DNA of 43,367 bases, from the NCBI GenBank assembly GCA_000996245.1, contig LBYP01000009.1, positions 1-43,367 on the forward strand. Direction: 5' to 3'. The notes beneath the pieces are model-generated. The model was given only the letters and a program-made list of their open reading frames with translations. It did not search any database and was not told the DNA's origin. Positions 17,066 through 39,202 of this stretch are shown one piece after another (within the stretch, counting starts at the first letter, position 1; each line of letters starts with the position of its first letter). The translations under genes and the position numbers were made by a program. The DNA comes from Parcubacteria group bacterium GW2011_GWA2_40_23 (GTDB taxonomy: Bacteria; Patescibacteriota; Patescibacteriia; UBA11705; JABHMO01).

Positions 17066-17100
17066 CCATGCAGTATAAAGTATTCTCTTTAACTGCATGG
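17066..17100 (+). repeat. 35-nt palindromic element, family 1, copy A
   Basis: CCATGCAGTATAAAGTATTCTCTTTAACTGCATGG; aligns over 35 nt with the copies at 25765 and 39168. Confidence 0.8.
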
Positions 17101-17155
17101 CAAGTCCCGCTAACTGCAGGATAAACAGAAAAAGTTACGCTAATTTTAAACAAAT

Positions 17156-25365: not shown

Positions 25366-26217
25366 CTAAATTTCTATTTTGTTAATTTTAATTTTTTCTT
25401 TTAAAAATTGTTCTGCCAGAGTCTGGAAATTTTCTGACAAATCAGTGACAAAATATTCGACTTTCGATTCACTCTCAGAGCTTGAATATTCCGGATGTCG
25501 AACCAGATACGCCTTCAAAGAATCTGCGACAATCTCACCTGGATTCGGCACAAAACATTTAGCCGACATTTTGAGGCGAAACTTATCAATCAGCAGAGGA
25601 TAATGTGTACAACCAAGGATCAAAGTGTCGATTGCCTTTTCTTTGAGTGCTTGCAAATATTTATCTAAAATTGAATCCATTTCGGCTGAATCTGCCCAGC
25701 CCTCCTCAATTAGGGGAACTAATAACGGAGTCTCTTGTTGGAACACTTCAATTTTAAAGGCTTGCCCCGCATTTAAAGGGGACACTTTATAGTGCGGGGA
25801 CTCTTTTTGGTTATTTAATTCTACCACATAAGCACCTGAATTAACAGTACCTCGAGTACCAATAACCCCAATACGACCAGAACTTTTTTGCGCCATAAAT
25901 TCAGCGACTGGACGTATCACACCTAGAATATTCAGATTATTCTCGACTGTGGATATTGTTGGCAAATATTCTTGTTGCAAACGACGTAATGCTTTGGCCG
26001 TGGCAGTATTACAGGCAAGGATAATCAGTCGACAACCTCGCTTGAATAAAAAATCACAAGCTTTCCGCGTCAAATCGTAAACAGCTTCGTCCGAACGATT
26101 GCCATAAGGCACATGCAAAGTGTCGCCCAGATAAATATAACTTTCATCAGGAAGTTGTTTCTTGATTTCTTTTAGGACAGTTAATCCGCCGAGACCTGAA
26201 TCAAAGATGCCGATCAT
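25366..26217 (-). CDS. murI: Glutamate racemase with in-frame palindromic-element insertion
   Basis: FDSGLGGLTVL, ACNTATA, GVIGTRGTVNSGAY, LGCTHYPLL. Confidence 0.93.
   Translation of the reverse strand: MIGIFDSGLGGLTVLKEIKKQLPDESYIYLGDTLHVPYGNRSDEAVYDLTRKACDFLFKRGCRLIILACNTATAKALRRLQQEYLPTISTVENNLNILGVIRPVAEFMAQKSSGRIGVIGTRGTVNSGAYVVELNNQKESPHYKVSPLNAGQAFKIEVFQQETPLLVPLIEEGWADSAEMDSILDKYLQALKEKAIDTLILGCTHYPLLIDKFRLKMSAKCFVPNPGEIVADSLKAYLVRHPEYSSSESESKVEYFVTDLSENFQTLAEQFLKEKIKINKIEI
25765..25799 (-). repeat. 35-nt palindromic element, family 1, copy B, inside murI
   Basis: Minus strand CCCCGCACTATAAAGTGTCCCCTTTAAATGCGGGG; encodes SPHYKVSPLNAG in the MurI frame. Confidence 0.85.
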
Positions 26218-30315: not shown

Positions 30316-31578
30316 ATGCTTAATCTCCAAAATGTTAATTGGAAAAAACTCGCACTTGTAGTAATTTTTATTGTCATTGTGCTTGTCGTTGGTTATTTAA
30401 TGTATACACTCTTTTTTAAAGGACCCACACCAATTACAGAAGAAAAAGGAAAGGCGGGAGAAATTGGACAATTACCCGGCGCTGAAAAAGGTCTTCAACC
30501 TGGCGTTGTGACTCCAGGGGAAGAAGGTGGAGCCAAATTACCTACAGAAAAAATTACTAAAATTGAAGCTGTAAAAACATCTGCCCCAGATGCAACCGCC
30601 CAAGGTGGCATTACAAAAGTTTATGATCTTGATTATGAAAAAAACTCTTCTTTCACGCTTGACGCGACTGGTAACAATATTGTGAGCTATCAAAAAGAAA
30701 CTGGTCTTTTTTATAAAATAAATCCTGATGGTACTAGAGAAAAATTATCTGAGCGTGTTTATAAAGATGTTGAAGAGGTTGCCTGGGCACCAGGCGCGGA
30801 TAAAGCAATTTTAGAATTTCCAGACGGCAGCAACATTCTTTTTGATATTAAAAGTGACAAACAAATTTCCTTGCCCAAAGATTGGACTGAATTTGATTTT
30901 AATGGAACTGGAGATAAAATTGGCTTTAAGGATATGAATCCCAACCCCGATTTACAATGGGTCGCTATGGCTAACCCGGATGGTTCGGGGCAAAAATATT
31001 TGGAACCACTCGGCACCAAGGCCAAACAATTTGAAGTGGATTGGTCACCGGCCGGAGATAAAGTAGCTCAGTACAATCCGGGTGGTTCTGCCGCCACCAG
31101 TCGACTTTTATTTGTAGGTTTAAATGGCGAAAATTTCCGCGACATTGATATGCGCGGCTATGGCGTAGAAACAAAATGGACCCCTGACGGTACACGCGTT
31201 TTGTACAGCGCCCATGCTATTAGCACTGATCACAAACCTCTCTTACACATTGTTAACGCTTCGGGTGACACTATTGGCTACGATCACCAAGATATCAACT
31301 TAAACACTTGGCCAGAGAAATGCACCTTTGCGGACACTGATACTGTTTATTGCGCTGTGCCAAAAGAACTTCCTTACGGCGCCGATTTCGCCCCAGAAGT
31401 TGCTGATACCATACCCGACTATATTTATAAAATTAATTTAAAAACCGGATCCAAAAGTTTTGTAGCTGAACCAGAACTTGATTATACAATTGATTTCATG
31501 CAAATTTCTGAAGATGGAACAAACCTATTCTTCACTGACAAATTATCTGGCAACATTCACACCATTAAATTAAAATAA
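30316..31578 (+). CDS. Membrane-anchored TolB/WD40-like beta-propeller protein
   Basis: N-terminal TM; repeated WAPGADKAIL, WSPAGDKVAQ, WTPDGTRVLY blades. Confidence 0.8.
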   Translation: MLNLQNVNWKKLALVVIFIVIVLVVGYLMYTLFFKGPTPITEEKGKAGEIGQLPGAEKGLQPGVVTPGEEGGAKLPTEKITKIEAVKTSAPDATAQGGITKVYDLDYEKNSSFTLDATGNNIVSYQKETGLFYKINPDGTREKLSERVYKDVEEVAWAPGADKAILEFPDGSNILFDIKSDKQISLPKDWTEFDFNGTGDKIGFKDMNPNPDLQWVAMANPDGSGQKYLEPLGTKAKQFEVDWSPAGDKVAQYNPGGSAATSRLLFVGLNGENFRDIDMRGYGVETKWTPDGTRVLYSAHAISTDHKPLLHIVNASGDTIGYDHQDINLNTWPEKCTFADTDTVYCAVPKELPYGADFAPEVADTIPDYIYKINLKTGSKSFVAEPELDYTIDFMQISEDGTNLFFTDKLSGNIHTIKLK

Positions 31579-31585
31579 AATATTC

Positions 31586-32845
31586 ATGGCTTCAAAAAAC
31601 AAAATATTTTTATTATTAACTCTGTTTTTATTTTTCCCGCCAGCCAGCTTTGCAGCAGTTATCCCCTTCGGACAACCCTGCGCCACTGGTGATTACTGCA
31701 CCAATGGTTTTTGCGAACAAAGTACCCTCTCGATACCTCAAAATAAATTTTGTGTTTGTGCCAGCGATAGCCAATGCGAGACTCAATTTACCAAAAGTTC
31801 TCCGCAAGAAACTTGGACCTGCAAACCTGGAGAAGATAAAACTAAAAACTTACACTACTGCGTTAGTACGACTCGAGGCACGCAAGAGCCAATCCCAGCT
31901 GGTGCCGCTCCGACTGCCACACCCCCAGAAGCTACTGGCACAACCGAAAAAAAAGAAAAACTGACACCACCAGTGGTTTCTGTTCCTATACCAGGTCTAG
32001 CCGCTTTTTCAGAGATTGAATATACACAAGGAGAAAAGGTTGATGTCCCTTATATTGCTCAATACATCGTGGCTATTTATAAATATGGTTTAGTTATTGG
32101 TGCACTATTGGCTGTTGTGATGATAATGATAGGCGGAATTATTTACTTGACAGCCGCAGGAGCACAAGGACTTATTGGAACTGGCAAAACTCTCATCTAT
32201 GGGGCAATAAGTGGACTTGTACTTTTACTTGGATCTTACCTCTTACTCATGACCATAAATCCCAACCTTGTTAATCCACAGGCAATTTCACTGGACACAA
32301 TAAAAGGATTAAACATTGAACCAGGAAATGAGACTTCAGAAATAGTTTATGAATCAATACAAAAATTGCCACCAAGTCAGCAATCACAAGGTATGAATTG
32401 TTATTTTAGCGAATTTGGACAAGATAAAGCAGCCGTAAGCTCACAAATAACCCAGGTCACTATCCTTGGTCACAAATATAGTGTGCACAAAAAAATGGCT
32501 CCCGCTATGCAGGCAGCAGCACAAGAAATAACTGCGTTGAATTCTCCGTATCTTGTAAAAAATGATGGGGGGTCAGGTGCGTTTAACTGGCGTCAAAATG
32601 TTAATAATCCAACTCAACTAAGCTTACATTCATTTGGTATTGCTTTTGATATAAACCCTTCAAAAAACCCAAATTACAAACGCCCTGAAGCATGCAAGCC
32701 CAATCAACCCTGCCCAGCATGTAATAGCGATATTCCAAAAGAAATAATCGATATCCTGAAAAAGAATGGTTTCCGTTGGGGTGGAGACTACAAATCCGTT
32801 TGCGATGCCATGCATTTTGAATGGTTAGGACCATGTGCAAAATAA
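31586..32845 (+). CDS. Cys-rich envelope protein with VirB2/TrbC pilin-like TM pair and M15 (VanY/DD-carboxypeptidase-like) domain
   Basis: Signal peptide, Cys-rich module, MIMIGGIIYLTAAG...LLGSYLLLMTINPNLV, SLHSFGIAFDIN...FRWGGDYKSVCDAMHFEW. Confidence 0.82.
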   Translation: MASKNKIFLLLTLFLFFPPASFAAVIPFGQPCATGDYCTNGFCEQSTLSIPQNKFCVCASDSQCETQFTKSSPQETWTCKPGEDKTKNLHYCVSTTRGTQEPIPAGAAPTATPPEATGTTEKKEKLTPPVVSVPIPGLAAFSEIEYTQGEKVDVPYIAQYIVAIYKYGLVIGALLAVVMIMIGGIIYLTAAGAQGLIGTGKTLIYGAISGLVLLLGSYLLLMTINPNLVNPQAISLDTIKGLNIEPGNETSEIVYESIQKLPPSQQSQGMNCYFSEFGQDKAAVSSQITQVTILGHKYSVHKKMAPAMQAAAQEITALNSPYLVKNDGGSGAFNWRQNVNNPTQLSLHSFGIAFDINPSKNPNYKRPEACKPNQPCPACNSDIPKEIIDILKKNGFRWGGDYKSVCDAMHFEWLGPCAK

Positions 32846-32860
32846 TTTAATAGTACTAAA

Positions 32861-34282
32861 ATGATTTCAAAAGTAAAAACAAATTCACTTCTTCTTACAA
32901 TACTTTTCTGTTTCTTATTTTTCCCTCTCGTTACTTTTGCGGCAGTTATACCTTTTGGCCAACCCTGCGCAACAGGTGACTACTGCACCAACGGTGTTTG
33001 TGAACAAAGCACCCTCACTGTACCTCAAAATAAATTTTGTGTTTGTGCAAGTGATAGTCAATGCGAAACTCAATTTACCAAGAGTACTACGCAAGAAACC
33101 TGGACCTGCAAACCTGGAGAAGATAAAACGAAAGGCTTACATTATTGTCTCAGCACTACTAGAGGAACAAAAGATCCTATACCAGCTACTTCCGCTCCAG
33201 CGCCAGAAACAGCACCAGCAGCTGCAGGCTCTTCTGAAGAAAAAATAAAACTGACAGCACCACTCATATCAATACCTATACCTGGACTGCCTAGTTTTGC
33301 TGAGCTAGAAGTCTCGCCAGGAGAAACAGTTAATGTGCCGTACATAGCAGAATATGTTATTGCGATTTACAAATATGGTTTAACCTTAGCTTCTATTTTA
33401 GCGGTCGTGATGATTATGATCGGTGGCGCCATGTATATCATCTCGAGTGCAGATCCTGGCAAAGTAGCGCTAGCCAAACAATTGATCTTTGGCTCCATCA
33501 CTGGTATAACTGTCTTACTCTGTTCATATTTAATGCTTAAAGTTATCAACCCCAACTTAGTAAATCTTGCGCCGATCTCTGTTGAAACAGTAAAAAAAGA
33601 TATCCAATATCTTGGCCCAGAGGCATATGAAGCCATTACTGGAACCACACTGCTTCCCACCGGGGAATATCAAATAATGGCCGTGGCAGCTGGTCGTGTA
33701 GTTGGTTTTACTGACGATTGCATAATGGTTAGTCTCTTAAAACAAGAATCCGGTGGTAGACCAGACGCTATTGGTCATGACGAAAATGTCCACTGGAATA
33801 TTCCGTCTCGTCGAGCTTTTCTGAAAAGTGGGGTAAAATATTCAGGGGCTACTTTTCCGGCTATAGCCAACATCGACACTAAAAGTGCTGACCAAAAAAT
33901 CATTAAAAATGATGACCCCACAAAAGATATAGAACATTTAGATTGGCGCTTTTCGCACGGCTTGGGCTTAACACAAATTACAATTTTCCCAACCGAAAAA
34001 TGTAATGGCGGAGTTGGTAAAAAAAATCCCTTTACTGGAGTTTGTTACACTCCGGCCCAACTACTCCAAGCACAAAACAGCCTTGATTACGGTGCCGCTC
34101 TACTTAAATCCCTCTATGTTCAAGCTGGGAAAAAGGGCATGACTGGCGAAGATCAAATCTTAGGCGCTTTCCTAGGATATAATGCTGGTGGTGGAAATAT
34201 GAAAAAAGAAAGCTTAACTACACACCATTATCCAGTAAGTGTTAAAAAGCTTCTTGACGCCTGCCACGCTCAAAACCCTTAA
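32861..34282 (+). CDS. Paralogous envelope protein with pilin-like TM pair and lytic transglycosylase-like domain
   Basis: N-terminus nearly identical to 31586 ORF; LLKQESGGRPDAIGHDE...HGLGLTQI...LGYNAGGGN. Confidence 0.82.
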   Translation: MISKVKTNSLLLTILFCFLFFPLVTFAAVIPFGQPCATGDYCTNGVCEQSTLTVPQNKFCVCASDSQCETQFTKSTTQETWTCKPGEDKTKGLHYCLSTTRGTKDPIPATSAPAPETAPAAAGSSEEKIKLTAPLISIPIPGLPSFAELEVSPGETVNVPYIAEYVIAIYKYGLTLASILAVVMIMIGGAMYIISSADPGKVALAKQLIFGSITGITVLLCSYLMLKVINPNLVNLAPISVETVKKDIQYLGPEAYEAITGTTLLPTGEYQIMAVAAGRVVGFTDDCIMVSLLKQESGGRPDAIGHDENVHWNIPSRRAFLKSGVKYSGATFPAIANIDTKSADQKIIKNDDPTKDIEHLDWRFSHGLGLTQITIFPTEKCNGGVGKKNPFTGVCYTPAQLLQAQNSLDYGAALLKSLYVQAGKKGMTGEDQILGAFLGYNAGGGNMKKESLTTHHYPVSVKKLLDACHAQNP

Positions 34283-38752: not shown

Positions 38753-39014
38753 TTGAATGGCTTGCCATAAAGTCATGCGAAGCATGTACTTTGGACTAGA
38801 TTGAATGGCTTGCCATAAAGTCATGCGAAGCGTGTACTTTGGACTAGATTGAATGGCTTGCCATAAAGTCACGCGTAGCGTGTACTTTGGACTAGATTGA
38901 ATGGCTTGCCATAAAGTCACGCGTAGCTGAATGGCTTGCCATAAAGTCACGCGTAGCGTGTACTTTGGACTAGATTGAATGGCTTGCCATAAAGTCACGC
39001 GTAGCGTGTACTTT
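38753..39014 (-). repeat. Tandem array of a 48-bp palindrome-containing unit (six copies, one truncated)
   Basis: Units start at 38753, 38801, 38849, 38897 (31 nt, truncated), 38928, 38975: TTGAATGGCTTGCCATAAAGTCAYGCGWAGCRTGTACTTTGGACTAGA. Confidence 0.93.
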
Positions 39015-39015
39015 A

Positions 39016-39090
39016 TGGTGCCCCCGCCAAGAATCGAACTTGGATCACAAGGTCCGCAACCTTGCGTTCTATCCGTTGAACTACGAGGAC
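39016..39090 (-). tRNA. tRNA-Arg, anticodon GCG, CCA encoded
   Basis: Full cloverleaf: GTCCTCG/CGGGGGC acceptor, GTTC/GAAC D-stem, CAAGG-TTGCGGA-CCTTG anticodon arm, CCAAG-TTCGATT-CTTGG T-arm, A-CCA. Confidence 0.93.
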
Positions 39091-39121
39091 CCCGAAGTAG
39101 AAGCTACGCTTCACTTCGGGG
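39090..39121. repeat. 32-nt palindromic element, family 2, on the 5' side of the tRNA
   Basis: CCCCGAAGT-A-GAAGC-TAC-GCTTC-ACTTCGGGG; same architecture as 38987-39018 on the other side of the tRNA. Confidence 0.85.
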
Positions 39122-39167
39122 CAAGCCCAGAGTGAAACATATCCTTACTTTTTTGCTTTCTTGTTTA

Positions 39168-39202
39168 CCCTGCACTTTAAGGGAACACTTAATAGTGCGG
39201 GG
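39168..39202 (-). repeat. 35-nt palindromic element, family 1, copy C
   Basis: Minus strand CCCCGCACTATTAAGTGTTCCCTTAAAGTGCAGGG; aligns with the murI copy, inner stem covaries. Confidence 0.83.

Follow-up and report, generated by a model that had tools for sequence, protein, structure and literature searches.

The glutamate racemase gene murI (25366..26217, minus strand; 283 aa) lies within the window, that is, the whole stretch of DNA analysed here, which comprises the 43,367 nucleotides of contig C9, and it is read through a palindrome that recurs elsewhere in the same DNA. The question raised by this locus is how a dispersed palindrome comes to lie in frame within an enzyme gene, and, if it was inserted, where the borders of the inserted unit fall and what kind of element it represents. 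The draft genome to which the window belongs (G000) amounts to 1.22 Mb in 37 contigs, with a completeness of 99.8%, and the listed relatives in the same class all have genomes of 0.7–1.3 Mb; together with the gene content, these sizes point to a probable member of the Patescibacteria/CPR. For comparison we used relatives that include G001, G002 and G003, which represent sister genera in the same family. The analysis indicates that the element is very probably a REP-like, non-autonomous mobile DNA hairpin, bearing a CTTG tag at its foot, and lying in frame in murI.

The extended loop of MurI

The gene was identified as murI from its match to family PF01177, from the presence of both catalytic-cysteine motifs, and from the predicted fold, the AlphaFold model being matched by Foldseek to MurI crystal structures with a TM score of ~0.84. 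The translation, the in-frame status of the palindrome and the intact motifs ACNTA and GCTHYP, as recorded in the initial annotation, all proved correct when the gene was read again, and judged from its sequence murI appears to be a normal, full-length gene apart from the in-frame unit. Between the tyrosine of SGAY and the PLLVP block there are 34 residues in this MurI, while in relatives other than G001 and G003 the same stretch comprises 19–25 residues, and exactly 19 in 19 of 22. The stretch is thus 15 residues (45 nt) longer than usual, which bears out the earlier estimate of an in-frame gain of about 45 nt, and 13 of the 15 are contributed by the element, which occupies residues 140–152. 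The element had been described as 35 nt long; this is right for the palindrome (25765-25799), but the mobile unit also takes in a CAAG tail (25761-25764) and is 39 nt in length (25761..25799, minus strand), with the sequence CCCCGCACTATAAAGTGTCCCCTTTAAATGCGGGG CAAG. It is translated as S-PHYKVSPLNAGQ-A, that is, PHYKVSPLNAGQ plus split codons, and the peptide across the insertion is SPHYKVSPLNAGQAFK. Excision of the exact 39-nt unit keeps the frame open and yields a MurI of 270 aa with a loop of 21 residues.

A surface location for the extra peptide had been anticipated, and the structural model agrees. The AlphaFold model was built from a five-sequence alignment with sequences from Bacteroidaceae, the sole group returned by the contig-collection search for relatives, and has a mean pLDDT of 85. 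Values below 50 are confined to residues 141–153, the element peptide, which is placed in a surface loop between the helix at 129–139 and the strand at 157–162.

A dispersed family of hairpins

That the palindrome is a copy of a dispersed family, as originally proposed, is confirmed by searches of its own genome and by a covarying stem. The murI copy used as a BLASTN query gave 22 matches at E<=1e-3; the copy census was made by covariance-model searches, whose counts are lower bounds, and gave at least 69 copies with the first model, at least 79 at E<=0.05 over fetched loci, and likewise at least 79 with a second model applied genome-wide. The copy in murI, at 67.2 bits, is the third best match in the genome. 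The hairpin has a 9-bp basal stem, a 1-nt bulge, a 5-bp upper stem and a 6-nt loop, followed by a tail YAAR(C), which on the opposite strand reads as a CTTG tag placed 5' to the hairpin foot; CTTG at the foot (CAAG on the other strand) is present in nearly all copies. The fold z-score is -3.7, compensatory changes are found in 6 of 14 stem pairs, the observed covariation score was reached by none of 500 shuffles, and when the pairing partner was slid the share of paired cells, otherwise 92.9%, never exceeded 52%. Subfamilies are distinguished by the upper stem, and in most copies the unit measures either 39 nt (45 of them) or 36 nt (18). The window holds, among others, a second full copy of the 39-nt subfamily, which is intergenic (39163..39202, minus strand; 60.8 bits), and an intergenic copy of the CCATG subfamily (17066..17105, plus strand; 45.6 bits), this being the subfamily found nested in loops elsewhere.

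Beyond this genome, hairpins that share the outer stem and end in a CAAGC tail are present in further genera, both of the same family and of the same order; a search with model R2 of eleven genomes of other orders found nothing at E<=0.001. The Rfam search of the window returned only tRNA and no known RNA family for the element; an exact match to its core was not found among IMG/VR viral contigs, and the viral structure library gave no useful match. A-rich sequence that is itself dispersed, and is of two kinds (AAGCAAGAAAACAA; GAACAATTTGAACAA/GCGAAGCGATA), often surrounds copies (for example at loci L046, L050, L045 and L053), as if the hairpins had been inserted into, or were travelling with, other repeats.

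Borders of the mobile unit

The extent of the unit can be read from copies that have entered other copies. Five copies are nested in this way, each in the loop of a different outer copy (L158, L167, L157, L058 and L155), and removal of 39 nt from each composite restores an outer copy that is within 1–4 mismatches of an uninterrupted copy elsewhere. Each insertion measures exactly 39 nt and has the form CC...CAAG; precise units of this length have thus reached new places by copying, with no duplication of the target. Placement of the unit is ambiguous by 2 nt, because both unit and target start with CC. These paralogous empty sites set the borders independently of murI or of any other gene, and the same borders, applied to murI, are those whose excision preserves the reading frame. 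As four of the five inner copies come from one subfamily, composites may have spread whole, and the number of nesting events is possibly smaller than five.

The murI loop in sister genera

The presumed empty site of murI is that of relatives more distant than the genus, and their comparison gave a mixed result for the initial annotation. The expectation that relatives would have a shorter loop was borne out in most; in G001 and G003, however, the loop comprises 35 and 31 residues of unrelated sequence, and a region of similar length but unrelated sequence in close relatives was the very observation which the annotation had named as telling against an insertion. These long loops do not refute it, since the 40 nt in murI match dozens of dispersed copies at ~80–93%, and since the excision described above leaves a loop of only 21 residues. 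The element sequence in murI is explained by insertion only.

The same loops nevertheless raise the possibility that the loop had already been extended in a common ancestor of G000, G001 and G003, and that the element, rather than entering a loop of normal length, came later to overwrite or replace some of this extension. The long loops of these three genomes, set against 19 residues in G002 and most others, speak for such a history, as does a tree of MurI alone, in which G000, G001 and G003 fall outside G002 with moderate support. The grouping is not resolved in a tree of concatenated MurI and UvrB, however, and exact excision leaves little remainder in G000 that could be ancestral. Moreover, the long loop of G003 includes a repeat of its own, GTCAAATGTCAAAAG, which is dispersed in the G003 genome, while that of G001 is G-rich and gave at best one weak match. 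An ancestral extension is accordingly improbable, though it is the strongest of the alternatives to be considered, and it is better to regard the loop as a permissive site, which a different sequence has filled in each of the three genera.

A second site in the gene tells a similar story. Near residue 90 of MurI, G001 (L010) has the peptide EIPDQVRND, encoded in frame by ATTCCGGATCAAGTCCGGAATGACG, a sequence with ~20 matches in the G001 genome and a CGTC tag at its end; near the same residue, MurI of G002 (L036) has ~28 extra residues, partly encoded in frame by the palindrome GTAGTGGCGGGTCTAGACCCGCCACTAC, which is of GTAG type and is found at several further places in the G002 genome. With REPs of CGTC type in G001 and of GTAG type in G002 both in frame at this second site, murI is a recurrent landing site in the family, and on sequence comparison it appears to have two permissive sites, entered by different repeats in different genera.

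Copies in other protein genes

The initial annotation had compared the element with Rickettsia palindromic elements (RPEs), which insert into coding genes, and had suggested that the proteome be searched for similar peptides. Four protein genes unrelated to one another, murI, uvrB, yidC and a DUF4012 gene, do indeed hold in-frame copies of the family, which contribute 12–13 aa each. The uvrB copy (G000:C6) is read on the same strand and in the same frame as that in murI, and adds the peptide SRHYKVSPLSAGQ to the variable linker that precedes the UVR motif; with 39 nt removed, the frame remains open and the linker has 34 residues, as against 33–40 in relatives. The sister subfamily of 36 nt is represented in the C-terminal tail of YidC by two tandem copies and a probable remnant (QHHSPNSGAGQA), repeats which are absent from the YidC tails of the relatives examined, and also in the N-terminal region of the DUF4012 protein (TQHHSLLSDAGQ). 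The sites thus comprise a surface loop in MurI, a linker in UvrB, and tails in YidC and the DUF4012 protein. All four genes read the element in one common, stop-free frame. Given the number of frames without stops in each copy, such agreement would arise by chance with a probability of ~1/2 x 1/5 x 1/3, so the shared frame is modest evidence.

Open reading frames make up ~90% of the window, and yet only ~5 of the 79 copies lie within convincing genes, those ORFs which overlap copies near the N-terminus (L040, L047 and L051) having been left out as probable wrong starts. Such scarcity is as expected if most insertions into genes are eliminated or avoided. Since both usual unit lengths, 39 and 36 nt, are divisible by three, and one frame is free of stops, an insertion in the right phase adds only 12–13 mostly polar residues. 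It may be supposed that selection removes most gene insertions, and that the survivors would be near-neutral passengers rather than adaptations.

The common frame might alternatively be taken to mean that the peptide or the mRNA hairpin has been kept for the benefit of MurI, in regulation or partner binding, or for control of murI mRNA. The copies in murI and uvrB, which are undecayed and among the four best-scoring members of the family, would fit such a role, but recent insertion predicts equally high similarity. The same peptide is also found in functionally unrelated proteins, at disordered sites, and other repeats occupy murI in sister genera; domestication is improbable, and slightly more so than an ancestral long loop. 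That there was no insertion at all, the loop having arisen by ordinary divergence, or the match by chance or from misassembly, can hardly be entertained: repeats can mislead assembly in a draft of 37 contigs, and loop length does vary in two relatives, but both flanks form one colinear racemase gene, the 40-nt covariance-model match (E ~1e-15) is beyond chance, and the pattern is repeated in three other genes.

Comparison with known palindromic elements

In the accounts given by PMC10969869 and PMC3733652 of the work of Ogata et al. (2000, 2002), RPEs are palindromes that lie in frame in genes unrelated to one another and apparently still functional, among them uvrB of R. conorii; they were ~150 bp long as first reported, according to one of these accounts. 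R. conorii RPEs have CGTC ends, and for some RPE-1 proteins the tagged product is expressed (PMC3733652). Compared by description, the likeness is close: dispersed palindromes lie in frame in unrelated genes that again include uvrB, the peptide is recurrent, and the sites are tolerated by the fold, so that the comparison first drawn holds well. The present element differs in its host lineage, its 39-nt unit, its CTTG tag and the location of most copies outside genes. Membership of the RPE family is not claimed, given the different foot tag, and the likeness would seem to lie in the in-frame habit.

REPs with GTAG and CGTC tags are hairpins of 20–40 nt, some of them wholly inside ORFs of repair and other genes, and in recB of two Xanthomonas species different REPs have reused approximately one site (PMC3733652). 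Tagged short hairpins within ORFs are thus common to both, and the reuse in recB is a precedent for murI. The CTTG tag, which is unreported in PMC3733652 and comes from a phylum outside that paper's coverage, places the element in neither the GTAG- nor the CGTC-tagged superfamily. REPs have been defined as short hairpins with a basal stem of at least 7 bp and an optional second stem after a bulge of 1–3 nt, with GTAG or GTGG 5' to the foot (PMC6006769). The stems and bulge of the present hairpin conform to this definition, with a 6-nt loop slightly above the rule for short hairpins, whereas its tetranucleotide is CTTG. With REPINs, RAYT-associated REPs and the ends of IS200/IS605 elements (PMC3116915, PMC6006769) it shares a bulged hairpin, a tetranucleotide 5' to the foot and insertion into existing copies, and insertion without target duplication is as expected of HUH transposition (PMC3116915, PMC6006769). 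REPINs differ in being inverted pairs, while the moving unit here is a single hairpin.

Among the open-access papers searched, none was found to describe such elements in CPR bacteria or to report a CTTG tag. In-frame palindromic repeats were first thought peculiar to Rickettsia and were later met with in a scattering of genomes rich in REPs. The present family, whose tag is different, acts likewise in an unrelated reduced genome, and its exact unit is readable from nested copies. As an event the case is ordinary in kind; the tag and the lineage are new, and the recurrence in one gene is unusual. The presence of different repeats in one enzyme gene across sister genera offers a natural test of how conserved proteins come to be lengthened by selfish DNA, and of which loops are tolerant.

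Proposed mode of transposition and possible insertion targets

By analogy with REPs and IS200/IS605 elements (PMC6006769, PMC3116915), the unit would be copied as a single-stranded hairpin by a HUH/Y1 transposase acting in trans. The genome encodes two candidates, an IS200-type TnpA (C26) and a RAYT-like Y1 protein (C8). Within the stretches read, no copy of the element flanks either gene, so that the neighbourhood typical of RAYT-associated REPs was not seen, and other palindromes are found there instead; nor was any transposase-like ORF recognised between the clustered copies that were read. The RAYT-like gene itself (L101 1090-1644, on C8) contains two in-frame copies of a different palindrome, of the type GTACGTG.AAGTCGCGACTT.CACGTAC, giving the peptides GTCRSRPARTD and RTCKSRLTRTD, and more copies of this palindrome lie nearby.

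On the CAAG strand, the nested, tRNA-adjacent, tandem and murI insertions are followed directly by CC (on the CTTG strand, they come just after GG). This rule is only a lead, since it fails for the uvrB copy and for many intergenic copies.

Related hairpins abut tRNA genes exactly in the window (38754-39126), at L152 (1333-1442) and L176 (1514-1622), and at L186 (G002:C47, ~1690-2905), where four to five consecutive tRNAs of G002 are flanked in this way. Hairpins at the 5' side share the leading Gs of the tRNA, and those at the 3' side start at CCA. In the window, tRNA-Arg (39016-39090, minus strand) has a single copy of the 36-nt class abutting its 5' end (39090..39126, plus strand; 27.7 bits), and at its CCA end there starts a tandem array of related hairpins (38754..39018, minus strand; CCAWAAAGTAC..GTGACTTTATGGCAAGCC, repeat family D2), with a period of mostly 48 nt. 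These arrangements may hint at an insertion target, or at a role in tRNA processing.

It is tempting to go further, and to suggest that CTTG marks a third tagged REP superfamily, typical of a single order of bacteria with small genomes; that the enzyme of this superfamily would prefer single-stranded targets ending in GG, such as the ends of tRNAs and the loops within existing copies of the element; that units of 39 and 36 nt would make gene insertions potentially harmless; and that murI in this bacterial family would have been entered by at least three families of repeats. Taken as a whole this proposal is tentative, and we think it somewhat more apt to fail than to hold.

Other features of the window

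Beside murI, in chromosomal surroundings, lies an ORF with a phage-type BRO-N domain (PF02498; 26306-27187). Further along there are three successive ORFs (30316-31578, 31586-32845 and 32861-34282), and a direct repeat of 287 nt with 82% identity (31625-31911 and 32912-33198) falls in two adjacent ORFs of ~420 aa, which suggests a recent duplication.
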